Both the position numbers and the translations under genes were made by a program. Source: Rhizobium lentis (GTDB lineage: Bacteria > Pseudomonadota > Alphaproteobacteria > Rhizobiales > Rhizobiaceae). From it: a DNA stretch of 64,000 nt. This document shows, in pieces, positions 15,764 through 63,602 of this stretch. Position 1 is the stretch's first letter, and every line of letters begins with the position of its first letter. The stretch is taken from positions 62,001 through 126,000 of the forward strand of contig NZ_CP071455.1 of NCBI RefSeq assembly GCF_017352135.1, in the 5' to 3' direction. Under the pieces are notes generated by a model, which made no database searches, was not told the DNA's origin, and worked only from the letters and a program-made list of their open reading frames with translations.

Positions 15764-15795
15764 TAGATATATTATCTATGTTTTTAGTAGATTAA
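15764..15795. promoter_or_regulatory. Dyad motif ATCTA-N9-TAGATTAA (site A of shared sulfur motif)
   Basis: An AT-rich block between the divergent importer genes holds alternating boxes: TAGAT (15764-15768), ATCTA (15774-15778) and TAGAT (15788-15792), the last followed by TAAA. The outer pair forms the dyad ATCTA-N9-TAGAT. An almost identical string (ATATTATCTAT, then TAGTRGATTAAA) stands before the FMN reductase gene at 63576-63602, and a third version before metQ. The site lies 70 bases upstream of the binding-protein start and about 130 upstream of the ATPase start. Confidence 0.6.
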
Positions 15796-15927
15796 ATGAT
15801 CCGAATTTGCTGGCTGCGGGAGATTCTTTGTTTCCCTGGTGCAGTTCACCAGGGAAATGCGTGCCTGGAATTCGACCGTCCGAACAAGGCACACTTCAGG
15901 TTCGAATGCAGTCCCGGACTTTTGCCG

Positions 15928-17412
15928 ATGCCGCTCCTTCACGTTGACAATACGACTCGCAGCTTCGGGTCGACGCAGGCGCTTGCCGGCGCTCATCTTT
16001 CGATTGAGCGCGGCGAGATCGTGGCGCTGATGGGCGCGAACGGCGCGGGCAAGTCGACGCTGGTGAAGATCCTTTCCGGCGTACTTCCGGCCGATGGCGG
16101 CACGATCCATCTCGATGGCCATCTCTTTTCGCCGCGCAGCCCGGCCGAAGCGGCAAAAGCCGGTGTCGTGACCGTGCACCAATCGACGGATCTGGTCGGC
16201 GCGGCGGGGCTGAGCGTTGCAGACGCCCTGCTTCTCAACCGCTTCGCCGATCGCAGCACACCTTTCTTCGTGTCGCGCGCCGGCATCCGTCGCGCCGCGC
16301 AGGCGATGCTCGATGCCGCCGGCTTCAGCCTGCCGCTCGATCGTGATTTCGGCGAGCTTACCAGCGCTGACCGTCAGCTGGTGGCAATTGCCCGGGCGCT
16401 CGCCAATCGCGCGGATCTTCTCATTCTCGATGAGCCGACGGCGAGCCTTTCCGGAGCGGAAAGCCGACGGCTCTTCGATATTCTGCTTCGTTTGCGCAAA
16501 CGCGGCTTGGCGATCCTCTACATCTCGCACCGCACGGCCGATCTGGAAGCCGTCGCCGATCGTGCGCTCGTCATGCGTGGCGGTCGCGTCGTCGGCACCT
16601 TCTCGCGGCCGATCGATTTTTCGAGTGCCATCGAGACGATGATCGGCCGCAAGCTGGAAGCGGCGCGGCCGGATGCGCGGTCCGCGGCCGGGCCTGCGAT
16701 TTTCGAGATGCGCGATATCAGCCTCCTCCCGGCAAGCGCGTCCTTCGATCTGTCGCTGCACGAAGGCGAGGTCGTGGCGGTGACGGGCGTGCTCGGCGCC
16801 GGCAAGAGCCGGCTGCTCCAGGCGATCTTCGGCGTGACGGCGCTTAGCCGTGGTGCGATGTTTCTGGACGGCCGGCCGTATCAGCCGAAAAATCCGGCCG
16901 ACGCAATTGCGGCCGGTGTCGCCATGGCGGCCGAAGACCGCCACCGCTCTTCGCTGATGCCGGCGGCATGGCCTGGCCACTCGCTGTCGGCGACGATCAG
17001 CCTGCCGCATCTTGCCAAATGGTATCCGCGTGGTTTCCTTGTCGGCAGTCGCGAACGGCGCGAGGCCGAGCAGGCCATCGCCCGCCTCGGCATCAAGGCC
17101 GCAGGCCCGTTCGCCTCTGTCTGGTCGCTTTCAGGCGGCAACCAGCAGAAGGCGGTGATTGCCCGCTGGGAGGCTGAGCCGAGCCGACTCTTGCTGCTCG
17201 ACGAACCCTTTCAGGGCGTCGACGTCGGCGCCCGGCGCGACATCATCCGGACCATCCGCAGCCGCACCGACCTGGCGACGCTGATCGCGACCTCGGATCC
17301 GGAGGAGGCCTATGAGGTGGCCGACCGCATCCTCGTTATCGACCACCACGTGTTGAGACCCGCAATCGGCGGGGCCGCCGGTCATCCCGAAATCCAAGGA
17401 ATATCCGCATGA
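15928..17412 (+). CDS. Sugar-type ABC transporter ATP-binding protein with two ATPase domains (RbsA/MglA-like)
   Basis: A 494-residue tandem ATPase. In the first half, Walker A GANGAGKST is at 36-44, the degenerate signature LTSADRQ follows, and Walker B is LLILDEPTA. The second half has an altered Walker A (GVLGAGKSR), a good signature LSGGNQQK and LLLLDEPFQG. This asymmetry is normal for RbsA, MglA and XylG. The ATG at 15928 was chosen because the ATPase fold begins there; a longer open frame runs back through the promoter region. It overlaps the permease gene by four bases (ATGA). It partners the binding protein at 14648-15694. Confidence 0.92.
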   Translation: MPLLHVDNTTRSFGSTQALAGAHLSIERGEIVALMGANGAGKSTLVKILSGVLPADGGTIHLDGHLFSPRSPAEAAKAGVVTVHQSTDLVGAAGLSVADALLLNRFADRSTPFFVSRAGIRRAAQAMLDAAGFSLPLDRDFGELTSADRQLVAIARALANRADLLILDEPTASLSGAESRRLFDILLRLRKRGLAILYISHRTADLEAVADRALVMRGGRVVGTFSRPIDFSSAIETMIGRKLEAARPDARSAAGPAIFEMRDISLLPASASFDLSLHEGEVVAVTGVLGAGKSRLLQAIFGVTALSRGAMFLDGRPYQPKNPADAIAAGVAMAAEDRHRSSLMPAAWPGHSLSATISLPHLAKWYPRGFLVGSRERREAEQAIARLGIKAAGPFASVWSLSGGNQQKAVIARWEAEPSRLLLLDEPFQGVDVGARRDIIRTIRSRTDLATLIATSDPEEAYEVADRILVIDHHVLRPAIGGAAGHPEIQGISA

Positions 17413-18458
17413 CGACGATCGACGAAGAGACGCTGCCGCAGACCGGCACCCTGCCGCGCGCCGGCCGCAACCGCCTTGCCGCTTTCGGCGCGTTCCTGCG
17501 GTCGGGCGCGGTGTTCATCCTGCTTGCGCTCCTCGTCGTCGGTTTTACCATCGCCGAGCCCGCCTTCATCAATATCGCCAATCTGATGAGCATCCTGCAG
17601 GCGGTCTCCGTCGTCGCCATCCTCGGCGCTGGCGTCACCGTCACCCTTGCCGTCGGTGGTTTCGATCTGTCGATCGGCGCGGTCGCCGCCTCGAGCGTGA
17701 TGGCGGCGAGTTATGCGATGATCGTCTGGGGCTTCGACGCCTATGCGACGGTGCCGCTGGTGCTCGCCTTCGGCGCCATGGTCGGCCTGGTCAATGCCTT
17801 CCTGATCGTGCGCTTGAAGGTGCCGGATCTTCTGGCGACGCTGGCGATGATGTTCTTACTTTCCGGCCTGCAACTGATCCCGACCGCCGGCCGCTCGATT
17901 TCATCAGGCCTCACCCTGCCGGACGGCTCAAAGGCGACCGGCGCTTATGACCCGGCCTTCCTGTTGATCGGCCGCTACAGCATCTTCGGCACCCTGCCGG
18001 TTTCCGTGGTGTTGATGGCGGCGGTTGCCGTCCTTCTCTTCATCCTTACCGAACGCACCCGCGTCGGGCGGCTGCTGTTTGCGACCGGCGGCAACGAGGT
18101 CGCAACCCGGCTTGCGGGCGCTTCGACGGTCCGGCTGAAGACGCTCGCTTACGTCATTTCGGGCACGCTGGCATCGCTCGGCGGCATCGTCATTGCCGCC
18201 CGCGTCGGGCGCGGCGATATCTCCTCCGGCGGCTCTCTGCTGATGGATTCGGTTGCCGCTGCATTGATCGGTTTCGCCGTCTTCAACCTCAGGCGTCCAA
18301 ACGTGCTCGGCACCATTGCCGGCGCCGTCTTCGTCGGCGTGCTCTTGAACGGCCTCACCATGCTGAACGCCCCCTACTACACGCAGGACTTCGTCAAGGG
18401 CGCCGTGCTCGTCGGAGCCCTGGCGCTGACCTACGGCCTCGGCCGCAGCAATCCCTAA
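17409..18458 (+). CDS. Sugar-type ABC transporter permease (RbsC-like)
   Basis: Inner-membrane permease of 349 residues, BPD_transp_2 family, with eight to ten predicted helices. The conserved motif GGFDLSIGAVAASSV matches the ribose-type GGIDLSVGS block, and AALIGFAVFNLRRPNVLGT corresponds to the conserved C-terminal loop. It overlaps the ATPase gene by four bases and is followed after 16 bases by the LLM monooxygenase gene, so importer and enzyme are in one operon. Confidence 0.92.
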   Translation: MTTIDEETLPQTGTLPRAGRNRLAAFGAFLRSGAVFILLALLVVGFTIAEPAFINIANLMSILQAVSVVAILGAGVTVTLAVGGFDLSIGAVAASSVMAASYAMIVWGFDAYATVPLVLAFGAMVGLVNAFLIVRLKVPDLLATLAMMFLLSGLQLIPTAGRSISSGLTLPDGSKATGAYDPAFLLIGRYSIFGTLPVSVVLMAAVAVLLFILTERTRVGRLLFATGGNEVATRLAGASTVRLKTLAYVISGTLASLGGIVIAARVGRGDISSGGSLLMDSVAAALIGFAVFNLRRPNVLGTIAGAVFVGVLLNGLTMLNAPYYTQDFVKGAVLVGALALTYGLGRSNP

Positions 18459-18474
18459 TCCAAGGAAAAAAGAC

Positions 18475-19872
18475 ATGACCCGCCAGATCAGGCTCAACGC
18501 CTTCGACATGAACTGCGTCGGACACCAGTCGCCGGGGCTCTGGCGCCATCCGCGCGACAAGTCCTGGACCTACAAGGATCTCGACTATTGGGTGCATCTG
18601 GCAAAGACGCTGGAGCGCGGCAAGTTCGACGGGCTATTCATCGCCGATGTGCTCGGCGTCTACGATGTGCTGAACGGCAATGTTGATGCGGCATTGCGCC
18701 ATTCCGCGCAGGTGCCGGTCAACGATCCGCTGCAGCTCATCCCGACCATGTCTTATGAGACCGAGCATCTCGGCTTCGGCCTGACCGCGTCGCTCTCCTT
18801 CGAGCATCCCTACACTTTCGCCCGCCGCATCTCGACGCTCGACCACCTGACCAAGGGCCGTGTCGGCTGGAACATCGTCACCTCCTACCTCAACAGCGGT
18901 GCGCTCAATATCGGTCAGCCGGCGCAGACGAAGCACGACGACCGCTACGATCTTGCCGAGGAATATCTGGAGGTCTGCTACAAGCTCTGGGAGGGAAGCT
19001 GGGAGGATGGCGCCGTCGTCCGCGACCGGGAAACCGGCATCTTCACCCATCCCGACAAAGTTCACTCCATCGGCCATTCCGGCAGGCATTTCAACGTGCC
19101 CGGCATTCACCTGAGTGAGCCCTCCCCGCAACGCACGCCGGTGCTCTATCAGGCCGGCGCCTCCAGCCGCGGCAAGGATTTCGCCGGCGCCCATGCCGAA
19201 TGCATCTTTGTTGCGTCGCCCTCGAAGGCCGTACTGAAGCGTTATGTCGCCAATGTCCGCGAGGCGGCCGAGCGTGTCGGCCGCAATCCGCGCGAAATCC
19301 TCGCCTTCAACCTGCAGACCGTGATCCTCGGCGAGACGGATGCGGAGGCGCAACGGAAGTTCAACGACTACCGCAAATATGCCTCCTTCGAAGGCGCGCT
19401 GACGCTGATCTCGGGCTGGACCGGCATCGATTTCGGCCAGTTCGGACCGGATGAGGTGCTGCGGCATCGTCATACCAATGCCGTGCAATCGGCCGTCGAG
19501 ACCTTCACGACAATCGATCCGACGAAGGAATGGACGGTGCGCGAAATGGCCGATTGGGTCGGCGTCGGCGGTTTCGGTCCTGTCTTCGTCGGCTCGCCGC
19601 AGACGGTCGCCGATCTGATGCAGGAATGGATCGAGGATACCGATGTCGATGGCTTCAACCTCGCCTATGCCGTAACGCCCGAGAGCTTCGAGGATGCCGT
19701 CGATCTGCTGGTGCCGGAACTGCAGAAGCGCGGCGTCTACAAGACCGAATATGCCAAAGGAACGCTGCGTGAGAAGCTTGGGGGAGCGGGCCCTCGGCTT
19801 GTCGCGCCGCATCCGGGTGTCGCCTATCGCAATCTCTTCGGCGAGCCCGCGCGTATCGCCGCCCGCGGCTGA
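18475..19872 (+). CDS. LLM class flavin-dependent monooxygenase (DmoA/NtaA/DszA-like)
   Basis: A 465-residue FMNH2-dependent monooxygenase. Features are IRLNAFDMNCVGHQSPGLWR at the N-terminus, DGLFIADVLGVYDV, RISTLDHLTKGRVGWNIVTS, and GPVFVGSPQTVADLMQEW near the C-terminus. DmoA, DszA and SnaA are the closest named types I can recall, two of which act on sulfur compounds. AAGGAAAA precedes the ATG. It sits directly behind the RbsC-like permease, so the imported compound is probably its substrate. It needs an external reductase; the FMN reductase at 62969-63529 is the only candidate in the window. Confidence 0.9.
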   Translation: MTRQIRLNAFDMNCVGHQSPGLWRHPRDKSWTYKDLDYWVHLAKTLERGKFDGLFIADVLGVYDVLNGNVDAALRHSAQVPVNDPLQLIPTMSYETEHLGFGLTASLSFEHPYTFARRISTLDHLTKGRVGWNIVTSYLNSGALNIGQPAQTKHDDRYDLAEEYLEVCYKLWEGSWEDGAVVRDRETGIFTHPDKVHSIGHSGRHFNVPGIHLSEPSPQRTPVLYQAGASSRGKDFAGAHAECIFVASPSKAVLKRYVANVREAAERVGRNPREILAFNLQTVILGETDAEAQRKFNDYRKYASFEGALTLISGWTGIDFGQFGPDEVLRHRHTNAVQSAVETFTTIDPTKEWTVREMADWVGVGGFGPVFVGSPQTVADLMQEWIEDTDVDGFNLAYAVTPESFEDAVDLLVPELQKRGVYKTEYAKGTLREKLGGAGPRLVAPHPGVAYRNLFGEPARIAARG

Positions 19873-19881
19873 GCGAATAAT

Positions 19882-19912
19882 GGCTGGGTGACAAAAAATA
19901 TCTCGCCCAGCC
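19882..19912 (+). other. Intercistronic hairpin
   Basis: A 10-bp stem with one G-T pair (GGCTGGGTGA / TCGCCCAGCC form) and an A-rich loop stands ten bases after the monooxygenase stop. No T-run follows, so it is more likely an RNA-stabilising or partial-termination element than a full terminator. The dipeptide-type importer genes follow on the same strand. Confidence 0.4.
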
Positions 19913-19996
19913 CGGTCATTCGAATTTAATCTCTATGACAGTCGGTACTTCGCCCTGAATATGGGCGCTCGGAACATGATCGATCAGGAGGGGCTC

Positions 19997-21607
19997 ATGA
20001 CCATTCCAGAAATCTCGCGGCGCGCGCTGATGAAGGGCACCGCTCTGCTGTTTGCCTCGACGGCGCTCGCCCGGCAAGCCCTTGCGCAGGCCGCGCCAAG
20101 CGGCGGCCGGCTGGTCGTTGCGGCCGATTCCGAGCCGAAGAACCTCAACCCCGCCATCGTCGCCTCGAACGGCGTCTTCTTCATCGCAAGCAAGGTGGTC
20201 GAGCCGCTCGCCGAAGCCTCGTTCGACGGCAAGGACGGGCTTGCGCCGCGCCTTGCCACCTCCTGGGAAGGTTCGCCCGACGGCCTCTCCGTCACCTTCA
20301 AGCTGCGCGACGGCGTCACCTGGCATGACGGCAAGCCGTTCACCTCGTTCGATGTCGCCTTCTCCGCGCTCAAGATCTGGAAGCCGCTGCAAAATCTCGG
20401 CCGTCTGGTCTTCGCCAATCTCGAAGCCGTCGATACGCCCGACGATTACACCGCCATCTTCCGCTTCTCCAAGCCGACGCCGTTCCAGCTCATCCGTAAT
20501 GCGCTGCCTGTCGTAACCAGCGTCGTCGCCAAACATATTTTCGACGGCACCGATATCGCCACCAATGCAGCCAATAATGCACTGGTCGGCACCGGCCCGT
20601 TCAAATTCGCCGAACACAAGCCCGGCGAATATTATCGGCTGACACGCAATGAGAATTATTGGGAAAAGGATCAGCCGAAACTCGACGAGATCGTCTACCG
20701 CGTGCTGCCTGATCGCGAGGCGGCGGGAGCGGCGCTCGAAGCAGACGAAATCCAGCTTGCCGCCTTCTCGGCGGTGCCGCTCGCCGATCTCGACCGTATA
20801 TCCAAGATCGACGGCATCAAGGTGATTTCCAAGGGCTACGAGGCCCTGACCTACCAGCTCGTCGTGGAGATCAATCACCGCCGCAAGGAACTCGCCGACC
20901 TCAGGGTGCGCCAGGCAATCGCCCATGCGATCGACAAGAAATTCGTGGTCGACACGATCTTCCTCGGTTATGCCGCCGCCTCGACCGGGCCGGTGCCGAA
21001 GAACGCACCGGAATTCTACACGTCCGATGTCGCGACCTATGAGTTCAACCCCGCGGCCGCCAACGATATCCTCGACAAGGCGGGTTACATCAAGGGGCCG
21101 GATGGCAACCGCTTCTCGCTGAAGCTCCGCCCCGCCCCCTATTTCAACGAGACCCGGCAATTCGGTGATTACCTTCGTCAGGCGCTCGCGGTGATCGGCA
21201 TCAATGCCGAGATCGTCAATGCCGATGCGGCCGCGCACCAGAAGGCTGTTTATACGAATCACGATTTCGATCTCGCCGTCGGCCCACCGGTCTTCCGCGG
21301 CGATCCGGCAATCTCCACCACCATTCTCGTCCAATCAGGTACGCCCGATGGTGTGCCCTTCTCCAACCAGGGCGGTTATGCCAATCCGGAACTCGACAAG
21401 ATCATCAAGCAGGCTGCGCAGACCATCGACACCGGTGCGCGCACCGGTCTCTACCGCAAGTTCCAACAGCTTGTAGTCGCCGACCTGCCGCTGATCAACG
21501 TCGCGGAATGGGGCTTCATCACCGTCGCGCGCGACACCGTGCTCAACGTCTCGAACAATCCGCGCTGGGCCGTCTCGAACTGGGGCGATACCGCGCTGCA
21601 ATCATGA
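19997..21607 (+). CDS. Dipeptide/oligopeptide-type ABC substrate-binding protein (family 5)
   Basis: A 536-residue periplasmic protein with a twin-arginine-type signal (SRRALMKG at 7-14, hydrophobic stretch, cleavage near ALA at 30). Family 5 blocks are LATSWEGSPDGLSVTFKLRD and GVTWHDGKPFTSFDV. The ATG at 19997 follows AGGAGG with six-base spacing; an earlier in-frame ATG at 19961 is not preferred. It heads a five-gene importer set. Members bind peptides, nickel, opines or glutathione-like compounds. Next to flavin monooxygenases, a sulfur-containing ligand is possible (inference). Confidence 0.9.
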   Translation: MTIPEISRRALMKGTALLFASTALARQALAQAAPSGGRLVVAADSEPKNLNPAIVASNGVFFIASKVVEPLAEASFDGKDGLAPRLATSWEGSPDGLSVTFKLRDGVTWHDGKPFTSFDVAFSALKIWKPLQNLGRLVFANLEAVDTPDDYTAIFRFSKPTPFQLIRNALPVVTSVVAKHIFDGTDIATNAANNALVGTGPFKFAEHKPGEYYRLTRNENYWEKDQPKLDEIVYRVLPDREAAGAALEADEIQLAAFSAVPLADLDRISKIDGIKVISKGYEALTYQLVVEINHRRKELADLRVRQAIAHAIDKKFVVDTIFLGYAAASTGPVPKNAPEFYTSDVATYEFNPAAANDILDKAGYIKGPDGNRFSLKLRPAPYFNETRQFGDYLRQALAVIGINAEIVNADAAAHQKAVYTNHDFDLAVGPPVFRGDPAISTTILVQSGTPDGVPFSNQGGYANPELDKIIKQAAQTIDTGARTGLYRKFQQLVVADLPLINVAEWGFITVARDTVLNVSNNPRWAVSNWGDTALQS

Positions 21608-21647
21608 TAGGATCGGCGGCAATTTTCTTCCAGAGGCCCTCTCCGGC

Positions 21648-22637
21648 GTGAAACGAGCCATCATCCTCCTGAGGCGCAGGGCGATCAGCAGCATTCCGGT
21701 GCTGCTGATCGTGGTGATCTTCACGTTTTTCCTGCTCGAATCCGCCTCGGGCGATGCCGTCGACGCCTATCTCGGCTCGATCGGCGGCGGTGATGCGGCC
21801 CTGATTCAGTCGCTGCGTGAGAGCTATGGCCTCGACCGGTCCATGCTTGCGCGCCTCTGGCTCTATCTTTCCTCGCTCGCGCGGTTCGATCTCGGCTGGT
21901 CGGTCGCCTTCAACCGGCCGGTCGGCGAACTGATTGCCGAGCGCCTGCCCAATACACTGCTGCTGATGGGCAGCGCGACGGCGCTTTCCTTCGGCCTCGG
22001 CTCAGCGCTCGGCGTCCTTGCGGGCGCGCGGCCAGGCAGCGTACGGGATCGGCTGCTGTCGATCGGTTCGCTTGTCGTTTATGCCATTCCGAGCTTTTGG
22101 CTCGGCCTGGTGCTCAGCATCACCTTTTCGGTGAAGCTGCGCTGGTTTCCCATCGCCGGCATAGAGACGATCGCTTCCGGCAAGACGGGATTTGCGCGCG
22201 CGCTCGATATATTTGATCATCTGGTGCTGCCGGTCGGTGCGCTTGCCATGATCTATCTCGCTTTGTTCCTGCGAGTGATGCGGAGCGGCATGGCTGAGGC
22301 ATGGAAGCTGGATTTCGTGCTCTTTGCCCGCGCCAAGGGTCTGTCGCGAAGCCGCATCGTGCTGCGCCATGTCGCGCGCAATGCGCTGCTGCCGCTCGTC
22401 ACCATGCTCGGGCTGCAATCGGCCGCCATGCTCGGCGGCAGCGTCGTGATCGAAAGCGTCTTTGCGATCCCGGGGTTCGGGCGGTTGGCGCAGGAGGCGG
22501 TCAATGGCCGCGATGCACCGCTGTTGATGGGCATCGTCGTCACCAGTGCCGTGCTCGTTATCGCCGTCAACTTCCTCGTCGATCTCGTCTATGCCGCGCT
22601 CGACCCGCGCATCGGCGCTTCGGAGGGCGGCGTATGA
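21648..22637 (+). CDS. Dipeptide-type ABC transporter permease (DppB-like)
   Basis: A 329-residue membrane protein of the DppB/OppB family. The long first periplasmic loop includes SLRESYGLDRSMLARLWLYL, and the coupling loop has ARAKGLSRSRIVLRHVARNA. It starts with GTG at 21648; no in-frame ATG fits the family N-terminus. A 40-base gap follows the binding-protein gene, and the stop overlaps the DppC-like start (ATGA). Confidence 0.92.
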   Translation: MKRAIILLRRRAISSIPVLLIVVIFTFFLLESASGDAVDAYLGSIGGGDAALIQSLRESYGLDRSMLARLWLYLSSLARFDLGWSVAFNRPVGELIAERLPNTLLLMGSATALSFGLGSALGVLAGARPGSVRDRLLSIGSLVVYAIPSFWLGLVLSITFSVKLRWFPIAGIETIASGKTGFARALDIFDHLVLPVGALAMIYLALFLRVMRSGMAEAWKLDFVLFARAKGLSRSRIVLRHVARNALLPLVTMLGLQSAAMLGGSVVIESVFAIPGFGRLAQEAVNGRDAPLLMGIVVTSAVLVIAVNFLVDLVYAALDPRIGASEGGV

Positions 22638-23467
22638 GCCGTCTCCAGCACTTCTTCAGCACCTGGGAAGGTGTGGCCGGGCTTGCGCTCCTCGTCATCC
22701 TGCTGTTGGCCGGCCTGCTCGCACCCGTCATCTCGCCGGGCGACCCGCTGAGAATCGCCGGCCGAGCGCTGCTCGCGCCGTTTTCCGAGCCGGCTTTTCC
22801 GCTCGGCACCGATCGTCTTGGCCGCGATGTGCTCGCCGGTCTGCTTTACGGTGCGCGCACCTCACTTGTGGTCGGCCTCGCGGCAGCCTTATCGGCCATG
22901 GTCCTCGGTGTCTGCGTCGGCATGGCGGCCGGTTTTGCCGGCGGGGTCGTCGACGAAGCGCTGATGCGGGTGGTCGACGCCTTCCAGATCGTGCCGGCTT
23001 TCCTGCTGGCACTTGCCTTCGTCAGCACCATCGGCGTCTCGACGCCTGTCGTCGTCCTGGCCATCGCACTTGGCAGTTGGGCGGATCCGGCGCGGCTGAC
23101 ACGAGCGCAGGTGCTTGCGATCCGGGAGCAGGATTATGTCGCTTCGGCGAAGGTGATCGGCATGCATCCGCTTGAGATCGCCGTCCGCGAAGTCCTGCCG
23201 AACGCGCTGCCGCCGGTGCTTGCGCTTTCCGCCACCATCGTCGCCGGCGCGATCCTCACCGAGGCGGCGCTTTCCTTTCTAGGCCTCGGCAATCCCAATA
23301 TCGCCACCTGGGGTTCAATGATCGCAGAGGGTCGCAGCGTGCTGCGTTCGGCATCCTATCTCTCGGTCATCCCCGGCGCAGCGCTTGCCGTGACCGTGCT
23401 CAGCGTCCACCTCTTCAGCGAGGGCCTCGGCAAGGCGCTGGCCGAGAACGGCGTGAGGGCGGTATGA
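22634..23467 (+). CDS. Dipeptide-type ABC transporter permease (DppC-like)
   Basis: A 277-residue permease. The first helix is followed by FPLGTDRLGRDVLAGLLYGA, the family hallmark before helix two, and the coupling loop reads ASAKVIGMHPLEIAVREVLP. The start at 22634 overlaps the previous stop by four bases, and its stop overlaps the next ATPase start in the same way. An open frame extends upstream but lies over dppB. Confidence 0.92.
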   Translation: MSRLQHFFSTWEGVAGLALLVILLLAGLLAPVISPGDPLRIAGRALLAPFSEPAFPLGTDRLGRDVLAGLLYGARTSLVVGLAAALSAMVLGVCVGMAAGFAGGVVDEALMRVVDAFQIVPAFLLALAFVSTIGVSTPVVVLAIALGSWADPARLTRAQVLAIREQDYVASAKVIGMHPLEIAVREVLPNALPPVLALSATIVAGAILTEAALSFLGLGNPNIATWGSMIAEGRSVLRSASYLSVIPGAALAVTVLSVHLFSEGLGKALAENGVRAV

Positions 23468-25028: not shown

Positions 25029-25039
25029 AGGAGATGCCG

Positions 25040-26134: not shown

Positions 26135-26204
26135 AAGCCTGCTTCGGCCTTGATAATCACAGCTCGTCAAGGCAGGAGAATGGCATCACGGAGACTTGGC
26201 AGAG

Positions 26205-50979: not shown

Positions 50980-51061
50980 CGAGCCTCCTCCTTACGAACG
51001 AATGACCGGCAGCGTTACAAGCCGGGAAAAGCCGGGCGCTTCGGGCGCCCGGCATCGTCAC

Positions 51062-53550: not shown

Positions 53551-53646
53551 ACGTCACCCCCCTTTGCTGTAGCAGATGGGCGGTCACTTGTGTTCTATCG
53601 CGGTCATGGCTACGCTGTCGCTCCGGAGATGGGGACTACCAAAAAT

Positions 53647-54147: not shown

Positions 54148-54165
54148 TGACCCCAAAGGCGTCGC

Positions 54166-55260: not shown

Positions 55261-55270
55261 GCTATCCTCC

Positions 55271-56281
55271 TCAGCGGGCGCCTATGCGCGCGGCTTTCGT
55301 CTGCGCCTCGAGCGAAAGGCGGCAGACTTCGAACACGTGATCCTGTGTCATCGCCGTCTGCGTGCGGTTGCCGACGTCGGCGGTGAAAGCGTCGAAATAA
55401 TCGAGCTTTTCGCCGCTGCAATCGATATGGGTCATTTCCTTGCCATTGACGAGGAAGAGATGATCCTTGCCCGGCCGGCCGGCAATATCGATATATTTGC
55501 GCAGCTCGATATAACCCTCGGTGCCGAGGATGGTCAGACGCCCGTCGCCCCAGGTCGGCAGCGCCTCCGGTGTGAACCAGTCGACGCGCACATAGCCCGC
55601 CGCCTTGTCGGAGCGAAGCAGCACTTCGCCGAAATCCTGGAAGGCCGGCTTGTCCGGCATGCCGAAATTGCCGATCGAGCTGGCGATGACCTCGCCTGAG
55701 GTCGAGCCGGTATAAAACAGGAACTGGTCGACCTGATGCGATGCGATATCGACGATGATGCCGCCAAAGGCTTCGGGGTCGAAGAACCAGCTGGGCCGGG
55801 TCGGCAGCTGCAGCCGGTGCGGGCCGACGCCCAGCGTCTGGATCACCTTGCCGATCGCGCCTTCCTTTACGAGCTTGCCGGCCTTGACGGCGGAACGCAC
55901 GCAATGGCGCTCGGAAAAGCAGATCGAAAAGATCTTGCCCGTTTCGGCGACGGTCTTCTTGACCTCCTCAAGCTGGGCGAATGTCGTCACGCCAGGCTTG
56001 TCGGTCATCACGTCCTTGCCGGCTTTCATCGCGCGGATGGCAAGGCCGGCCCGATCGCGCGGGATCGCGGAAATGCAGATGACGTCGATCGACGGATCGG
56101 CAAAAAGTTTTTCCCGGTCGATCTGCGGCGCGTCGGGATAGGTCTTCTCGAAGGCCTCGCGCAATGCCGGTACGGAGGTCTGAGGGCAGTAGCCGACGAA
56201 CTCGCCGCCTGCGGCAAGCAATCCCTTCACGTGATCGAACGTATGCCCATGGTCGATTCCGACGACGGCAAATCTCAACAT
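55271..56281 (-). CDS. Gfo/Idh/MocA family oxidoreductase
   Basis: A 336-residue dehydrogenase. The Rossmann start is LRFAVVGIDHGHTFDHVKGL, with an unusual G-I-D-H-G-H in place of GxGxxG, and TDKPGVTTF carries the conserved lysine. The C-terminal domain has GGIIVDIASHQVDQFLFYTG. The ATG at 56281 was chosen since AGGAGG stands 11 bases upstream and the first strand begins there. The altered glycine motif suggests non-standard cofactor binding. Confidence 0.85.
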   Translation of the reverse strand: MLRFAVVGIDHGHTFDHVKGLLAAGGEFVGYCPQTSVPALREAFEKTYPDAPQIDREKLFADPSIDVICISAIPRDRAGLAIRAMKAGKDVMTDKPGVTTFAQLEEVKKTVAETGKIFSICFSERHCVRSAVKAGKLVKEGAIGKVIQTLGVGPHRLQLPTRPSWFFDPEAFGGIIVDIASHQVDQFLFYTGSTSGEVIASSIGNFGMPDKPAFQDFGEVLLRSDKAAGYVRVDWFTPEALPTWGDGRLTILGTEGYIELRKYIDIAGRPGKDHLFLVNGKEMTHIDCSGEKLDYFDAFTADVGNRTQTAMTQDHVFEVCRLSLEAQTKAARIGAR

Positions 56282-56646
56282 CGCTGCAATATCCTCCTGG
56301 GATTTTCTTAAGCCCGGCTGATGCCGGCATCCTCCATGTCGGGGCAAAACAGATAACGAAACTTGGCTCCTGTCAAGGCGAGGTAGAGACCGAAATTGCG
56401 CGCAGATAGATATAACTACTTGAAATAATACAATTATTTTGTATCTAAATAGTTATTTACCGGTTTCTGTACGGCGTTTTGGCAGCACGCGGCTCATTCG
56501 ATCCCATTGGACGAAAGTCTTTTTCCCAAGCATGTCTTGCCCCATCTGCGTGAATGTGATCGATTTCAGCCGTCACCGGCTGGAGGGTGGCAACGATCTC
56601 GGAAATTTAAAGAGTGCACCACGCTCGCCTATGACGGAGGACCACC
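56282..56646. promoter_or_regulatory. Divergent promoter region with nested AT-rich palindromes
   Basis: A gap of 365 bases between a minus-strand dehydrogenase pair and the FAH-family gene. A very AT-rich core (56405-56460) holds AAATAAT-ACA-ATTATTT (56423-56439) nested in the inverted repeat ATAACTA (56412-56418) / TAGTTAT (56450-56456). It stands out sharply from the GC-rich surroundings and is a candidate operator or curved promoter DNA. No gene seen. Confidence 0.55.
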
Positions 56647-57807
56647 ATGTCTCATCCCCTTCTCGATGCCGACGCTTCGGCTGGTCTTTTTGTCGGCCGC
56701 GTCTGGAATCCCGAGGTCGCCGGACCGAGTATTGTCACGCTTCGGGAGGGAGTGCTGATCGATATCACGTCGCGCGAGGCGCCGACGCTGAGCGCTTTGC
56801 TCGAGAAGCAGGATGCTGCCGGCTTCGTCCGTGCCGCAAATGGCAAGACGATCGGCACCTTGGGGGAGATCGCCGCCAACAGCAACGGAGCGCCGGATGA
56901 GACGCGCTCCTACCTCCTTGCGCCTGCCGACCTGCAGGCGGTCAAGGCCTGCGGCGTCACCTTTGCCCAGTCGATGATCGAGCGCGTCATCGAGGAGAAG
57001 GCGGCCGGCAGTCCTGAACGTGCCGCCTCGATCCGCGAGCGCGTCAGCACGTTGATCGGCGGCAGCCTCACCAATCTCAAGGCCGGCTCGCAGGAGGCCG
57101 CCAAGGTCAAGCAGGCGCTGATCGACGAGGGCATGTGGTCGCAATATCTCGAGGTCGGCATCGGTCCCGACGCCGAGGTCTTCACCAAGGCGCCGGTGCT
57201 GTCCTCCGTCGGGTGGGGCGCGGATGTCGGCTTGCACCCGATCTCGACCTGGAACAATCCCGAGCCGGAAATCGTGCTTGCCGTCAACAGCCGCGGCGAG
57301 ATCAAGGGTGCGACGCTCGGTAACGACGTCAATCTGCGTGATGTCGAGGGCCGCTCCGCGCTGCTGCTCGGCAAGGCGAAGGACAACAATGCCTCCTGCT
57401 CGATCGGTCCCTTCGTCCGCCTGTTCGATGCCGGTTACGGCCTGGATGATGTGCGCAAGGCGGAACTTGACCTCAAGGTCACCGGCCGCGATGGCTTCGT
57501 GCTCAACGGCAAGAGCTCGATGTCGCAGATCAGCCGCGATCCGACCGATCTCGTCAAGCAGACGCTTGGCCCCCACCATCAGTATCCCGATGGGTTCATG
57601 CTCTTTCTCGGCACCTTGTTTGCGCCGACCCAGGACCGCGACGCACCGAAGCAGGGCTTTACCCACAAGATCGGCGACGTCGTCGAAATCTCCTCGGCGG
57701 GGCTCGGCGCACTGGTCAACACCGTGCGTCTCTCCACCGAATGCCCGCCCTGGACTTTCGGCATTTCGGCGCTGATGCGCAATCTCGCACAGCGGGGATT
57801 TCTTTGA
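56647..57807 (+). CDS. Fumarylacetoacetate hydrolase (FAH) family protein
   Basis: A 386-residue enzyme with a C-terminal FAH domain. The metal ligands are suggested by NPEPEIVLAVN (Glu-x-Glu) and TLGNDVNLRDVEGR (Asp), about 30 residues apart as usual. GGAGGACCACC precedes the ATG. Relatives hydrolyse diketo acids or dehydrate 2-keto-3-deoxy sugar acids. With two dehydrogenases divergent next to it, the latter kind of sugar-acid pathway seems likely (inference). It converges on the mutase gene, with stops one base apart. Confidence 0.87.
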   Translation: MSHPLLDADASAGLFVGRVWNPEVAGPSIVTLREGVLIDITSREAPTLSALLEKQDAAGFVRAANGKTIGTLGEIAANSNGAPDETRSYLLAPADLQAVKACGVTFAQSMIERVIEEKAAGSPERAASIRERVSTLIGGSLTNLKAGSQEAAKVKQALIDEGMWSQYLEVGIGPDAEVFTKAPVLSSVGWGADVGLHPISTWNNPEPEIVLAVNSRGEIKGATLGNDVNLRDVEGRSALLLGKAKDNNASCSIGPFVRLFDAGYGLDDVRKAELDLKVTGRDGFVLNGKSSMSQISRDPTDLVKQTLGPHHQYPDGFMLFLGTLFAPTQDRDAPKQGFTHKIGDVVEISSAGLGALVNTVRLSTECPPWTFGISALMRNLAQRGFL

Positions 57808-57808
57808 G

Positions 57809-59947
57809 CTACTGGTTTCGCCGCCTGCCCTGCAAGAGGTCGAGGACGGAGTTTGCCGCCTCGAGGACGTTCGTGCCCGGCCCGAACACGGCCGCAACGC
57901 CGTGTTCGTGCAGGAATTCATAGTCCTGCCGCGGGATGACGCCGCCGCAGACGACAATGATATCGTCACCCCCCTGCTCTTTCAGCTTGTCGACCAGCTG
58001 TGGCATCAGCGTCCTGTGACCCGCTGCCAGTGACGAGACTCCAACCACATTGACCTTTTCGCCAAGCGCCATCTCGACAGCCTCGTCAGGTGTCTGGAAC
58101 AACGGACCGGCGAGCACATCGAAGCCGATATCGCCGAAGGCCGAGGCGATCACCTTGGCGCCACGGTCGTGACCGTCCTGACCGAGCTTGGCAACCATGA
58201 TTTTCGGCCGCTGTCCCATCGCTTCCGTGACCTCCGCCATGCGGGTCTTCAGCACCGCAAGTTCCGGCTCGTTGTCATAGGCCTCGCCATAGACGCCCTT
58301 GATGACGGCAGGCGTTGCGGCATGATCGCCGAAGGCATCACGCATGGCATCCGAGATCTCGCCGACGGTGGCGCGGGCCCGCGCTGCCTCGATGGCGGCT
58401 TCCAGGAGGTTTCCCCTGCCGCTCCGCGCGACCTCCGTCAGGCTGGCCAGAGTCTCGCGCACGGTGGCGCCGTCGCGCCGTCTCTTGGTTTCCTCGATCC
58501 GTTTGATCTGGGCGTTGCGCACCGCACTGTTGTCGATCTTCAAAATGTCGATCGGCTGTTCGTTGTCGAGCCTGTAGCGATTGACGCCGACGATGACCTC
58601 CTCGCCTTTGTCGACGGCCGCCTGCCGGCGCGCCGCCGCTTCCTCGATCAGTCGCTTCGGCAGGCCGTCATTGACGGCGCGGGTCATGCCGCCGAGCGCT
58701 TCCACTTCTTCGATCAACGCCCAGGCGTGGTCGGCAAGTTCCTTCGTCAGGCTTTCGACGTAATAGGAGCCGGCCAGCGGGTCGACGACCTTGGTCACCC
58801 CGGTTTCATGCTGGAGGATGAGCTGGGTGTTGCGGGCGATGCGGGCGGAAAATTCCGTCGGCAGCGCGATCGCCTCGTCGAAGGAATTCGTGTGCAGGGA
58901 CTGCGTGCCGCCGAGCACGGCCGACATCGCTTCGAAGGCGGTGCGGACGATGTTGTTATAGGGGTCCTGTTCCTGCAATGAGACGCCGGAGGTCTGGCAA
59001 TGGGTACGCAGCATCAGCGAAGTTTCCTTCTTCGGCTGGAACTCCTCCATGATCCGGGTCCAGAGCAGGCGGGCGGCGCGGAGTTTTGCGGCCTCCATGA
59101 AGAAATTCATGCCGATGGCGAAGAAGAAGGAGAGCCTTCCGGCGAAATCGTCGACATCGAGGCCCTTCTTGATTGCGGCGCGGACATATTCGCGGCCGTC
59201 GGCCAGCGTGAAGGCGAGCTCCTGCACCAGCGTCGCGCCGGCCTCCTGCATGTGATAGCCGGAGATCGAGATCGAGTTGAACTTAGGCATCTCCCTTGCC
59301 GTATAGTCGATGATGTCGGCAACGATCCGCATCGAAGGCTCGGGCGGATAGATATAGGTGTTGCGGACCATGAACTCCTTGAGAATGTCGTTCTGAATGG
59401 TTCCCGACAGCTCTGCGCGGGAAACACCTTGCTCTTCACCAGCGACGATGAAATTGGCGAGGATCGGAATGACGGCGCCGTTCATGGTCATCGAAACAGA
59501 CATTTCCCCAAGCGGAATGCCGTCGAACAGGATTTTCATGTCCTCGACGCTATCAATCGCGACGCCCGCCTTGCCGACATCGCCCTCGACGCGGGGGTGA
59601 TCGCTGTCATAACCACGATGGGTGGCAAGATCGAAGGCAACCGACAGGCCCTTCTGGCCGGCAGCGAGATTGCGGCGATAAAAGGCGTTGGATTCCTCTG
59701 CCGTCGAGAAGCCGGCATATTGCCGGATCGTCCATGGCCGGCCGGCGTACATCGTCGCGCGTGGCCCGCGGGTGAAGGGCGAAAAACCGGGCAGCGAGCC
59801 GAGGTGCGCCGCGCCTTCGACATCGTCGGCGGTATAGAGCGGCTTGACGGCGATGCCTTCCGGCGTGTGCCAGGTCAGTGTGTCGGGCAAGGCGCGCAGC
59901 TCCTTCTGCGCAAGCTCCACCCAATCCGACAGCGTCTTCTTCGTCAT
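57809..59947 (-). CDS. bhbA: Methylmalonyl-CoA mutase
   Basis: A 712-residue single-chain adenosylcobalamin-dependent mutase that interconverts methylmalonyl-CoA and succinyl-CoA. The N-terminal barrel has [20 protein letters not shown] and [11 protein letters not shown]. The C-terminal B12-binding domain has the D-x-H-x-x-G motif at 591-596 (lower axial ligand His593), with [10 protein letters not shown] and FGPGT later. GGAGG precedes the ATG at 59947; the nine-residue longer form starting at 59974 is less likely. The same gene in Sinorhizobium is called bhbA and elsewhere mutB or scpA. It stands apart from its usual partner genes. Confidence 0.96.
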
Positions 59948-60077
59948 GCGTTCCTCCGGCTCTTTCATCGCCACCTTATCATTTCACAGGTGGCTGATGC
60001 GATACAGCCTTAGGACAATTAACGCAGCAAAGCATTCGCTGCCTGCCGTTCGCCCGCCGCAAGCCTCCGCCCTTGAC

Positions 60078-60731
60078 CTATCGATGATCGAGCTTGGCGA
60101 CCAGCCGGTCGCCTAGCCACTGGATGCCGCAGACGAGGACGATGAGGACGGCTACCACCGCGATCATCACGCTGGTTTCAAAACGCTGGTAGCCGTAGCG
60201 GATGGCGAGATCGCCGAGACCGCCGGCGCCGATTGCACCGGCCATGGCGGAGGCGCCGATCAGCGTCACCAGCGTGACGGTGAAACCTGCGACGATGCCA
60301 GACAGTGCTTCCGGCACCAGCACCTCGCGGACGATTGTCCAGCGATTGCCGCCCATGGCGCGCACTGCATCGATCAACCCGCGGTCGACCTCGCGCAGCG
60401 ATACTTCGGCAATACGCGCGTAGTAGGGAGTCGCGGCGATGGCGAGCGGCACGATGGCTGCCCATGTGCCGAGCGCCGTGCCGACGATCAGCCGCGTCAG
60501 TGGGATCAGCGCCACCAGCAGGATGATGAAGGGCACCGAACGGAAGCCGCTGATAACAGCGCCGAGGACGCGATTGATCCAGAGATTTTCAGCGATGCCG
60601 CCGCGTGCCGTCACAACAAGGGCAAGGCCGAGCGGCAGGCCGGCGACGAGTGAAATCACGCCCGAGGCGACGGTCATCAGGACCGTTTCCCAAAGCGAAC
60701 GGATCAGCAGTTCAAGCATGATCGGCGTCAT
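60078..60731 (-). CDS. metI: Methionine ABC transporter permease MetI
   Basis: A 217-residue permease of five helices. Typical blocks are GFRSVPFIILLVALIPLTRL, then AEVSLREVDRGLIDAVRAMG (the coupling loop) and TLIGASAMAGAIGAGGLGDL. The ATG at 60731 follows GGAGG; the gene overlaps the end of metN by 20 bases. Confidence 0.94.
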   Translation of the reverse strand: MTPIMLELLIRSLWETVLMTVASGVISLVAGLPLGLALVVTARGGIAENLWINRVLGAVISGFRSVPFIILLVALIPLTRLIVGTALGTWAAIVPLAIAATPYYARIAEVSLREVDRGLIDAVRAMGGNRWTIVREVLVPEALSGIVAGFTVTLVTLIGASAMAGAIGAGGLGDLAIRYGYQRFETSVMIAVVAVLIVLVCGIQWLGDRLVAKLDHR

Positions 60732-61797
60732 AGCCAAGCACCTCCACCCGGGCGGACCGGGCCGTCAGGAATTGTTCGACCTTTCCGGCAAGCGCGGGAT
60801 CGCGCGTGGGAATGGCGATGAAGAACCGCGCTACCGGCTGGTTCTGGATATGGTCGATGCCGCCGTGGACGAGGCGGAACGAATGCGGCAGTGCCGCCGA
60901 GAGTTCGGCAAACAGCGCGCCTTGTGCTTCGGGTCCGGCGAGATCGACGCTGAGGATCGCTTCGCTGCCCGCCGTCGCCGACAGCCGGCCGGCGATATGA
61001 TCCGGAAGCTGCGGCCGGATGCCGCCGAGCAGGCTCCTGGTGGTCTCAGCCTGCGGATTGGCGAAGATCGACCAGACCTGCCCTTCCTCGACGATCCGGC
61101 CGGCATCGATGACTGCGACGCGATCGGCAATGCCGCGCACCACTTCCATCTCGTGCGTGATCAGCAGGATGGTCAGTCCGAGCTTACCGTTGATATCCTT
61201 GAGCAGCGCCAGGATCGACCGAGTCGTCTCGGGATCGAGCGCCGATGTCGCCTCGTCCGATAACAGGAGCGCCGGGCGTGCCGCGAGCGCCCGGGCGATG
61301 CCGACGCGCTGCTTCTGGCCGCCCGAGAGTGACGAGGGATAGGCCTTCGCCTTGTCGGCAAGGCCGACGAGCTCAAGCAGTTCATGCGCCCGCTTCAGTC
61401 GCTCGGCCTTGGCAACACCCTCGATCTTCAGCGGCAGTGCGACATTGTCTTCGACCGTCTTGGCGGAAAGCAGATTGAAATGCTGAAAGATCATGCCGAT
61501 GCGGCGACGGAGCAGCTGCAGCTCCTGCTCCTGAAGCCGGGTGATATCACGGCCTTCGATGCGGATTTCGCCGCTGTCGGCACGCTCCAGCCCGTTCAGG
61601 CAGCGGATCAGAGTCGATTTGCCGGCGCCGCTGCGACCGATGATGCCGAGGATCTCGCCCCTCTTCACTTTCAGTGAAATTCCATCGAGCGCCGGCGTGG
61701 CTCCGAACCGCCGCTTCACGTCGGTAAGCCTCACCACCTCCTCGGCCGCCGCTTGTGGCTGTGCCTCAATCGCCGTGGTGGAAACAAACGAATTCAT
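60712..61797 (-). CDS. metN: Methionine ABC transporter ATP-binding protein MetN
   Basis: A 361-residue ATPase. Walker A GRSGAGKST is at 54-62, with IGMIFQHFNLLSAKTV, LSGGQKQR and LLLSDEATSALD, then a C-terminal NIL/ACT-like domain (from about 280) which in E. coli binds methionine and inhibits transport. The N-terminus is about 18 residues longer than in E. coli. It is separated from metQ by 87 bases with a strong hairpin. Confidence 0.95.
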   Translation of the reverse strand: MNSFVSTTAIEAQPQAAAEEVVRLTDVKRRFGATPALDGISLKVKRGEILGIIGRSGAGKSTLIRCLNGLERADSGEIRIEGRDITRLQEQELQLLRRRIGMIFQHFNLLSAKTVEDNVALPLKIEGVAKAERLKRAHELLELVGLADKAKAYPSSLSGGQKQRVGIARALAARPALLLSDEATSALDPETTRSILALLKDINGKLGLTILLITHEMEVVRGIADRVAVIDAGRIVEEGQVWSIFANPQAETTRSLLGGIRPQLPDHIAGRLSATAGSEAILSVDLAGPEAQGALFAELSAALPHSFRLVHGGIDHIQNQPVARFFIAIPTRDPALAGKVEQFLTARSARVEVLGYDADHA

Positions 61798-61818
61798 GTG
61801 CTTTTCCTTACAAACACT

Positions 61819-61854
61819 GAAGGCGGCCCCGGCAAGGACACCCGGGCCGCCTTC
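61819..61854 (-). terminator. Strong hairpin between metQ and metN
   Basis: An 11-bp perfect stem, GAAGGCGGCCC / GGGCCGCCTTC, lies between the metQ stop (61885) and the metN start (61797). No proper T-run follows on the minus strand (AGTGTTTG). It is likely a partial terminator or 3' protector that gives more metQ than metNI mRNA, as is common for binding-protein genes. Confidence 0.6.
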
Positions 61855-61884
61855 GGCGGGCCTTAACCCCGGCCCTCTTTCGGA

Positions 61885-62724
61885 TCAATAGGCGCTGAGA
61901 CCCGTGCCCTTGTAGACCTTGTCGAACTCGGCCTTGACGGTGTCATTCTGATAGGAAGACACAAGCGTTTTGACCCAGTCGGCATCCTTGTTCTCGTCCT
62001 TGACGGCGATGAAGTTGCGGTACGGATTATCGGCGATCGGCTCCTGCGCAATGCGTTCGGCCGGCGAAAGGCCGCTCTTCAGCGCCCAGTCGGTGTTGAC
62101 GACGCCTGCATCCAGATCGTCGATCGAACGGCCGACAATGCCAGCGTCGAGCTCCTTGATCTCGATTTTCTTCGGATTGTCGATGACGTCGGCAACGGTT
62201 GCGAGAATGCCCGTGCCGTCCTTCAGCTTGATCAGGCCTTCATTCTGCAGAACGCGGAGCGCCCGGCCTTCGTTCGAGGGGTCGTTCGGCACGCCAATGA
62301 CAGCCCCTTCCGGGATCTCGGCGACGGATTTGTGCTTCTTGCTATAGAGGCCGATCGGCCAGACCCCGGTATAACCGACGCGCACGATGTGATAGCCGTG
62401 CTGCTTGACCTGGTTGTCGAGATAGGGCTGGTGCTGGAAGGCGTTGGCGTCGATTTCGCCACGCTCCAGCGCTTCGTTCGGCTGGGTATAGTCGTTGAAG
62501 GTAATGGTCTCGATCTTGAGGCCCTTCTTGGCCGCCTCGTTCGTGACCACGCGCCATACGTCCTCATCCTCGCCGGCCATGATGCCGACCTTGATCGACT
62601 TGTCTTCGGCAAAGGAAGGAGCGGGCGCTGCAAAGGAAATTAGCGCGGCAGCGGAAACAGCGACGGCTGCAAGAGCCGCGCGGCGCGAAAGGTGGAAGCC
62701 GTGAAGATTTTTGTTCTTGGTCAT
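61885..62724 (-). CDS. metQ: Methionine ABC transporter substrate-binding protein MetQ
   Basis: A 279-residue NlpA/MetQ family protein. The signal peptide (1-39, hydrophobic 18-38) carries a twin-arginine-like LSRRAAL and no lipobox cysteine, so unlike E. coli MetQ it is predicted soluble in the periplasm. Family blocks are IKVGIMAGEDEDVWRVV, GEIDANAFQHQPYLDNQ and IGVPNDPSNEGRALRVLQ. Its promoter region holds site C of the shared sulfur motif. Confidence 0.94.
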   Translation of the reverse strand: MTKNKNLHGFHLSRRAALAAVAVSAAALISFAAPAPSFAEDKSIKVGIMAGEDEDVWRVVTNEAAKKGLKIETITFNDYTQPNEALERGEIDANAFQHQPYLDNQVKQHGYHIVRVGYTGVWPIGLYSKKHKSVAEIPEGAVIGVPNDPSNEGRALRVLQNEGLIKLKDGTGILATVADVIDNPKKIEIKELDAGIVGRSIDDLDAGVVNTDWALKSGLSPAERIAQEPIADNPYRNFIAVKDENKDADWVKTLVSSYQNDTVKAEFDKVYKGTGLSAY

Positions 62725-62871
62725 TTTATGTCCCGTCTGACTGAATGAGGCCGAACGCCCCGAGCGGGCCGATCATGGCAAATGCGCGCATCGGGAGCGA
62801 AGTACGAAAGTCTGATGTGGAGGAAAGGTCGGAAATACTCTTGCCTTGCCGTCGATATCGGCAGGATAAAT

Positions 62872-62893
62872 TTCCATTAAATTTGTGGATTAA
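62872..62893. promoter_or_regulatory. Dyad motif TTCCA-N9-TGGATTAA (site C of shared sulfur motif)
   Basis: TTCCA at 62872-62876 and TGGATTAA at 62886-62893 have the same nine-base spacing and the same GATTAA right flank as sites A and B. It lies 149 bases upstream of the metQ start in the only intergenic space available for its promoter. Confidence 0.5.
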
Positions 62894-62927
62894 TTGCGGC
62901 TCGTAAGCATATTCTAAAAAATGAAAA

Positions 62928-62945
62928 CGGCGCCTCCGGGCGCCG
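62928..62945 (-). terminator. Terminator of the FMN reductase gene
   Basis: A 7-bp stem, CGGCGCC / GGCGCCG, with loop TCCG is followed on the minus strand by TTTTCATTTTTT. It begins 23 bases after the reductase stop and separates it from metQ. Confidence 0.85.
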
Positions 62946-62968
62946 CCTCAAACCTGTTTCGGCACTTT

Positions 62969-63529
62969 TCACTCGGCAGCGATAAGCGCTTGATGTCGGG
63001 CAGGAAAGAAGGCAGAAAGCTCGCGAATGACATCTTCGATCCGCTTGGAAAGCGGCTCGGACGAGACGCGGTAATCGGTGAAGTCACGGTCGGAAGCATA
63101 AATGGCCGTCGGCAGCGTGTGGGACATGAAGAAGCCGAAGAGCGGGCGGAGCTGATGCTCGACCACAAGCGCATGCCGGTCGCCGCCGCCGGTTGCGCTG
63201 ATCACGATCGGCTTGGCGCGCAGCTCATGCGGATCGATCAGGTCGATCAGATGTTTGAAGAGGCCGGGATAGCTGCCTTTGTAGGTCGGCGCGCCGATAA
63301 CCAGCACGTCGGCATTGACGATGTCGTCGATGATGTCCTTGGCGCGGCTGTCGAGATCGTCACGGCGCAGCGCTTGGCCAAGCGAGGGGCCGACATCGGC
63401 CAGGTCGTAGATGGTGTTGTCGAAGCCGTATTTCTCACGGGCGAGACTGGCGACGTTTTCGACGAGCGCGAAGGTCTTCGAGGGGCGGTTGAAGCTACCC
63501 GCAAGGCCGACCAGTGTATGAGCAGACAT
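62969..63529 (-). CDS. NADPH-dependent FMN reductase (SsuE/MsuE family)
   Basis: A 186-residue flavodoxin-fold reductase. The flavin phosphate loop is GSFNRPSKT at 11-19, with VLVIGAPTYKGSYPGLFKHL near 75-94, then ISATGGGDRHALVVEHQLRP, a block typical of MsuE/SsuE. It reduces FMN for two-component monooxygenases such as SsuD or DszA types. AAGGAAA precedes the ATG. It has its own terminator and, about 50 bases upstream, site B of the sulfur motif, almost identical to site A beside the monooxygenase operons 45 kb away. Confidence 0.92.
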   Translation of the reverse strand: MSAHTLVGLAGSFNRPSKTFALVENVASLAREKYGFDNTIYDLADVGPSLGQALRRDDLDSRAKDIIDDIVNADVLVIGAPTYKGSYPGLFKHLIDLIDPHELRAKPIVISATGGGDRHALVVEHQLRPLFGFFMSHTLPTAIYASDRDFTDYRVSSEPLSKRIEDVIRELSAFFPARHQALIAAE

Positions 63530-63575
63530 GCCATTTCCTTCCTATACGTGCCGTAACCGATGTCGTTCTCCGAGA

Positions 63576-63602
63576 ATATTATCTATAAAAATAGTGGATT
63601 AA
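63576..63602. promoter_or_regulatory. Dyad motif ATCTA-N9-TGGATTAA (site B of shared sulfur motif)
   Basis: ATATTATCTAT at 63576-63586 is identical to 15769-15779. ATCTA (63581-63585) and TGGATTAA (63595-63602) are spaced by nine bases as at site A. It stands 52 bases upstream of the FMN reductase start, in operator position. Confidence 0.6.

Follow-up and report, generated by a model that had tools for sequence, protein, structure and literature searches.

What joins three closely similar short elements that stand before sulfur-related genes of Rhizobium lentis, and which protein would recognise them? The question arises from a stretch of 64,000 nucleotides (nt) of contig NZ_CP071455.1 (positions 62,001 to 126,000; hereafter the window, with positions counted from its first letter), in which site A precedes the gene of a periplasmic binding protein (SBP), site B an msuE-type flavin mononucleotide (FMN) reductase gene and site C metQ. 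We propose that A, B and C are operators of one sulfur-acquisition regulon, most likely bound by the Rrf2-family protein Rrf2-B of this genome (rrf2-B, C1:929748-930209, minus strand) acting as a repressor, a reading which the comparative evidence makes probable. Sulfur in soil is mostly organic, and its supply bears on symbiosis through nitrogenase and iron-sulfur (Fe-S) proteins. Beyond an effect of LsrB, the papers found give no description of the rhizobial control of sulfate assimilation and organosulfur scavenging. A preliminary description of the window suspected an undescribed sulfur regulon and knew of no rhizobial regulator named for such a site; the latter holds in the literature searched, which, as far as seen, mentions neither the motif nor the regulator. 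That description did not include the palindrome, the promoter geometry, cysHDN as a target or a candidate regulator. The short operator, list of targets (including a small orphan protein) and single candidate gene that result make the question directly testable. C, G and L numbers are our handles for contigs, genomes and loci.

The three matches to the 22-base pattern of the preliminary description lie where it placed them, all on the plus strand (A, 15774-15795; C, 62872-62893; B, 63581-63602). They are the only exact matches in the 6.42-Mb genome, which has none to the reversed pattern; this count alone is little proof, the pattern being drawn from the same three sites, and independent tests were therefore sought. 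The pattern was absent from all 60 first-order Markov simulations of the window, and when three mismatches were allowed it matched 18 times in the window with 19.4 matches expected, which is not special. This one-sided pattern was dropped for the palindrome TCTAYWAAWTTWRTAGA, because cysH lacks the GATTAA flank and a tauD-like site has an imperfect form of it (see below). Allowing up to three mismatches, the palindrome finds exactly A, B and C in the window (0.05 expected; none of 100 shuffles reached three). Its consensus TCTAYWAAnTTWRTAGA covers 17 base pairs (bp) with a dyad core of TCTA-N9-TAGA, and its copies lie at 15775..15791 (A; extended 15765-15798), 63582..63598 (B; extended 63574-63605) and 62873..62889 (C, upstream of metQ; extended 62864-62896), A being the weakest of the three with three mismatches. 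Of the shared features first noticed, the common arms belong to the dyad; the GATTAA flank, like the ATATTATCTAT common to A and B, falls mostly outside it, one on each side. Read in the orientation of the genes that they are taken to serve, on the minus strand, the sites have the form TTTAATCYACTA-N5-ATRGA-N-AATAT.

The palindromic nature of the element emerged from additional sites in the same genome, found with R1, a sequence-only model of 36 hand-picked sites from SBP, MsuE and MetQ promoters. R1 was trained on A, B and C, and on the orthologues of A as well, so its matches on those genes, such as A (E 5.5e-6), B (E 8.6e-7) and C (E 3.0e-4), are not independent. Nine distinct places of the genome matched R1 with E of at most 1 (150 of 257 first-look candidates scored), including the three window sites and a second msuE. 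Five of the nine lie outside the training gene groups, and four of these precede sulfur genes: a tauD-like gene, the gene of an SsuD-like monooxygenase, an MsnO8-type operon and, at its promoter, cysHDN; the fifth precedes the gene of a 64-amino-acid orphan. The palindrome itself, with up to two mismatches, occurs at 12 places versus none for the reversed control, a set outside which site A falls by its third mismatch. This search adds an SsuA-family importer and a MetQ-like/MetN-like operon to the R1 places, and nine of the 12 are upstream of sulfur genes (cysHDN, two msuE, metQ, metQ-like, ssuA, ssuD-like, tauD-like and msnO8).

The same element recurs in relatives. With at most one mismatch it was found at 128 places in 40 genomes of the genus, versus one place for its reversed form, and 35 of the 40 carry it. 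We sorted by hand the neighbours of 102 sites from relatives, 71 of them from the genus (out of 123 beyond this genome) and 31 from other genera (out of 71): 57 adjoin a sulfur-use family, 12 importer binding proteins without assigned substrate, 9 flavoproteins, 8 the orphan family and 2 small proteins, and 14 have another neighbour or none. The 57 consist of CysH (10), MsnO8 (10), MsuE (8), other LLM monooxygenases (11, not all of which are sulfur enzymes), MetQ (4), TauD-like (3), CysG (3), TauA (1), CysK (1), SsuD-like (1), the importer of site A (2) and SsuA-like proteins (3), the last being weak assignments (L324 and L399 below the SsuA cut-off, L396 only by 28% identity). Twelve further neighbourhoods were examined because they held an rrf2 gene.

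Orthologous promoters keep the sites. Site A is present in all 30 fetched orthologous SBP promoters (own copy included), and of the 30 MsuE loci fetched, with the own copies counted, 26 have a counterpart of site B upstream; the other four (L030-L033), counted as misses, are distant relatives with 51-57% identity. The mean major-base fraction within the 17-bp dyad is 0.93 in the 30 SBP promoters, versus 0.71 and 0.54 in the upstream and downstream flanks, and 0.87 in the 26 MsuE promoters, versus 0.52 and 0.45, in alignments that were anchored on the site itself and hence favour the dyad somewhat. In a regular-expression search sites were found behind msuE, the place of metQ in this genome, in five of the 30 MsuE loci, and equivalents of operator C precede MetQ relatives in L329, L356, L375 and L388. 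Neither of the two outcomes that the preliminary description named as refuting was seen, and its sulfur regulon is supported: the arms are better conserved than the DNA around them (0.93 and 0.87 versus 0.45-0.71), and the genome-wide sites fall mainly, in nine of 12 cases, before sulfur genes.

How would such an element act? In the orientation of the gene, the msuE and SBP promoters read (C/A)TTTAA, the 17-bp palindrome, and TAATAT or a similar block. The inferred -35 of the SBP promoter, ATTTAA (15792..15797, minus strand), is conserved outside the dyad, includes part of the GATTAA flank and stands at 17-bp spacing from the inferred -10, TAATAT (15769..15774, minus strand), a conserved AT-rich block; for msuE the corresponding elements, assigned on conservation and spacing, are CTTTAA (63599..63604, minus strand) and TAATAT (63576..63581, minus strand; CAATAT in many relatives). 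At A and B the palindrome thus looks like the filling of an apparent -35/-10 spacer of 17 bp, the length of a sigma-70 spacer. Upstream of the cysH dyad TTGACA occurs in all 80 named loci, 14 nt ahead of the CTA arm in 78, which would put the palindrome over the likely -10, and in the msuE promoter of L023 the dyad ends 33 nt ahead of the ATG, leaving room only for a site that overlaps the promoter. Because a protein bound within the likely promoter would hide it, a repressor is the most likely binder. The resemblance of the conserved flanks to core promoter elements also invites the notion that the block is a strong AT-rich promoter, alike from gene to gene by chance and served by no dedicated regulator. 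That notion is hardly credible, since the palindrome alone gives the 128-to-1 ratio of the 40 genomes, marks mainly sulfur genes and, as set out next, tracks one regulator gene.

Outside the genus, sites (at most one mismatch) cluster around rrf2-B. Among 148 genomes from other genera of the family, those with Rrf2-B carry sites in 32 of 55 cases (55 sites versus 4 control), those with only its paralogue Rrf2-A in none of 14, and those with neither in 10 of 79 (16 sites versus 22 control, which is control level). The difference between genomes with and without Rrf2-B gives a Fisher p of 1.1e-9, or p 5e-7 when each genus is represented once (22 of 41 versus 6 of 67), values that are optimistic since the genomes are kin. 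Presence was called at identities of at least 60% to Rrf2-A and at least 53% to this genome's Rrf2-B; G082 and G195, which have an intermediate relative, were placed under neither, and the broken copy of G159 was counted as present. In G159, a genome without sites, the match to rrf2-B comes in two pieces that overlap and differ in frame (C2:104297-104675), owing to decay of the regulator or to a fault of the assembly, and Rrf2-A (82% identical) is kept with its divergent cysH. Linkage agrees with co-occurrence: 16 of 64 listed sites (from the 71 outside the genus) lie within 10 kb of rrf2-B, with 0.24 expected assuming 5-Mb genomes. In several genus genomes a site is followed by the gene of a flavin adenine dinucleotide (FAD) protein and then by rrf2-B (L326 and, by position, L352 and L362), and in other genera rrf2-B stands beside cysPTWA-type sulfate importers, FAD proteins or LLM monooxygenases. 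The copy of R. lentis adjoins an SfnB-like gene.

Rrf2-A, about 45% identical to Rrf2-B, was the binder favoured first, because the palindrome lies between its gene and the divergent cysH: (T/C)CTA-N9-TAG separates the two in all 80 named loci, mostly of Rhizobium (the CysH motif being seen in 78 of them). Moreover, rrf2-A is found in 37 of 37 genus genomes, and both paralogues have in common the same four cysteines and IPKKFL, by analogy perhaps part of the recognition helix. As main binder Rrf2-A was then rejected, because the 14 genomes that have it without Rrf2-B have no sites. In four loci outside the genus (L198, L201, L203 and L204), rrf2-A stands beside cysH with no palindrome at up to four mismatches, and where a listed site from another genus has an Rrf2 gene nearby, that gene is rrf2-A only in G156, a genome with both paralogues. 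Binding by the protein encoded divergently from cysHDN is, on this distribution, improbable.

The other protein to be weighed is LsrB, a LysR-family regulator of Rhizobiales, for which A, B and C would be activator sites. The dyad does contain T-N11-A, the rule for LysR sites, but its place at A and B, inside the likely -35/-10 spacer, would be unusual for a LysR activator. LsrB was rejected on distribution: it is near-universal in the family (145 of 151 genomes), including 88 of the 93 genomes without Rrf2-B, in which sites are at control level. It resembles the proposed regulator in its effect on cysteine-biosynthesis genes, deletion of lsrB in A. tumefaciens being reported to alter the expression of cysI, cysN, cysD and cysH under H2O2 (PMC11975290); the main text of that paper does not contain the word 'motif'. 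We consider LsrB a very unlikely reader of the sites.

Rrf2-B is therefore compared here with the characterized members of its family. Rrf2-A passes the Rrf2 family models PF02082 (134.1 bits versus 30) and TIGR00738 (119.2 versus 73.3); the Rrf2-B relative L326:4271-4741, which stands in for the own copy, passes TIGR00738 (113.2 versus 73.3), and PF02082 is carried by the 120 homologues of the own Rrf2-B among the matches listed. The databases name these 120 listed homologues 'Rrf2 family' or 'transcriptional regulator', with a single source-given 'CymR'. Against the CymR hidden Markov model (HMM) NF047409, with a cut-off of 195 bits, Rrf2-A scores 79.2 and the L326 relative 81.2, and both are far below the cut-offs of the IscR, RirA and NsrR equivalog HMMs. 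By sequence, the nearest solved relatives of the two paralogues are 4cic (a BadM/Rrf2 regulator), CymR (2y75, 3t8r) and IscR. Four cysteines, C-x8-C-x2-C-x5-C, are invariant in all 94 distinct Rrf2-A and Rrf2-B proteins of the fetched loci. The Fe-S sensing Rrf2 proteins IscR, RirA and NsrR also have a cysteine cluster in this region, with three cysteines instead of four stated for RirA and NsrR (PMC5863699, PMC5411485), and, unlike these regulators, Rrf2-B has mainly sulfur genes as predicted targets.

CymR, likewise a repressor of the Rrf2 family, belongs to the Firmicutes Bacillus subtilis and Staphylococcus aureus and not to Alphaproteobacteria, and senses through a complex with CysK and O-acetylserine. 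It is described as the master regulator of cysteine metabolism (PMC2940859). The likeness lies in the computationally predicted targets, cysteine and sulfur-source genes. The aligned CymR lacks cysteines in the region where Rrf2-A and Rrf2-B have their four, and according to PMC9338935 CymR does not carry an Fe-S cluster. Rrf2-B would thus be CymR-like by predicted targets and not CymR by family tests, and its cysteines suggest a different sensor. A bolder reading, tentative and in our judgement somewhat doubtful, is that Rrf2-B represents an undescribed kind of four-cysteine Rrf2 repressor, a CymR-like master regulator of sulfur in Proteobacteria that unites the role of CymR with a cysteine cluster resembling that of the Fe-S sensors and in which a metal or Fe-S site would, through its state, report sulfur supply directly, and that the paralogue divergent from cysHDN makes a two-regulator circuit with it.

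Overlapping sets of sulfonate and sulfate genes are controlled in Escherichia coli by CysB/Cbl, which are LysR activators, and in Pseudomonas by the SfnR system, SfnR being a sigma-54 activator; neither involves an Rrf2 repressor. For Rhizobium and other members of its family, we infer binding by Rrf2-B, repression and a sulfur signal as follows. A dimer of Rrf2-B would bind the 17-bp palindrome and block RNA polymerase while sulfur is plentiful; at sulfur shortage it would leave the operator, and the target genes would be expressed together. These would comprise cysHDN for assimilatory sulfate reduction, the MsuE FMN reductase, SsuD-like, MsnO8 and DmoA-type flavin monooxygenases, a taurine-dioxygenase-like protein, and importers of sulfonates, methionine and other compounds. 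The four invariant cysteines are the likely sensor, perhaps via a metal or Fe-S site.

Several points weigh against this proposal, beginning with the comparative nature of the entire case and the kinship of the genomes behind the co-occurrence. No site at up to one mismatch is found in 23 of the 55 genomes with Rrf2-B, nor at up to two mismatches in the 16 kb around the own rrf2-B, so local autoregulation is not seen in this genome. Two of the 12 places (C1:769010 and C2:551487) look random and one precedes the orphan gene; 14 of the 102 sorted sites of relatives have no sulfur-linked neighbour, and the share of sulfur genes was counted without a matched random-promoter baseline. Within the window, the sulfur-related SfnB/LLM pair at 10221-13094 lacks the palindrome at up to three mismatches. 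As to the promoters, an E. coli-type promoter scan covering B and C recognised nothing at either. The -35 and -10 assignments were drawn from conserved blocks and their distances and are unclear at site C, where no definite -10 stands out; at msnO8 the TTTAATC flank is on the side of the gene and hence not a -35.

Downstream of operator A lies the SBP gene (14648..15694, minus strand; Peripla_BP_4), and codirectional with it the gene of a DszC/SfnB-like protein of the acyl-CoA-dehydrogenase type (13360..14688, minus strand), which reaches the curated cut-off of neither family. On the plus strand, running away from the SBP gene, are the genes of a sugar-type ATP-binding cassette (ABC) importer ATPase (15925..17412, start approximate), an ABC importer permease (17409..18458; BPD_transp_2) and an FMN-dependent monooxygenase of the NtaA/DmoA family (18475..19872; TIGR03860 573.8 bits, cut-off 279.7). 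Matches to this region occur in 94 plasmid records, of which 88 are from Rhizobium. The genes at B and C are all on the minus strand: msuE (62969..63529; TIGR03566 244.6 bits, cut-off 212.5) is downstream of operator B, and metQ (61885..62724; TIGR00363 247.8 bits, cut-off 228.85) downstream of operator C, with a metN-like ATPase gene (60712..61797; best NCBIfam family ABC_MetN, below its cut-off) and metI (60078..60737; NF008049 230.1 bits, cut-off 212). A terminator-like stem-loop between msuE and metQ (62924..62949, minus strand), weak as a signal with one found versus 1.2 expected in shuffles, suggests that metQ may have its own promoter. A second sulfur locus is made by the SfnB/LLM pair at 10221-13094, whose members are a clear SfnB (TIGR04022 624 bits) and a monooxygenase of the DmoA family; a half-site-like TTCTATAGAATTTGTG is seen near 11803, in the gap of this locus.

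The 64-amino-acid orphan behind a palindrome (L080:3775-3969, in the genome C1:2055274-2055468, minus strand) belongs to a family of 62-68 amino acids with the pattern M.KQVIEYAGVPVGIV.PD...LKFIAVKFHVHDLD, which has no match in Pfam or NCBIfam. Its relatives recur behind the palindrome in L315, L321, L332, L336, L340, L348, L363, L376 and L400, which makes the family a candidate sulfur-starvation protein. Between the operator and the orphan gene lies a reading frame of 31 codons (MTDIDILATLLGRS...; L080 about 4047-4142, minus strand, on C1), which could encode a small protein or serve as a leader. Other proteins of 51-56 amino acids, with one membrane segment as judged by eye, are preceded by the palindrome in other genera (L269:7469-7639, L270:7032-7196, L397 and L398). 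In L379 a site lies upstream of a cysteine-synthase-like (CysK) gene and a cystathionine beta-lyase gene. Three sites of G162, from another genus, precede a siderophore-type binding protein gene, a peroxiredoxin-like gene and one that NCBIfam does not match (L405, L407 and L408), and reflect either chance or a wider link to stress.

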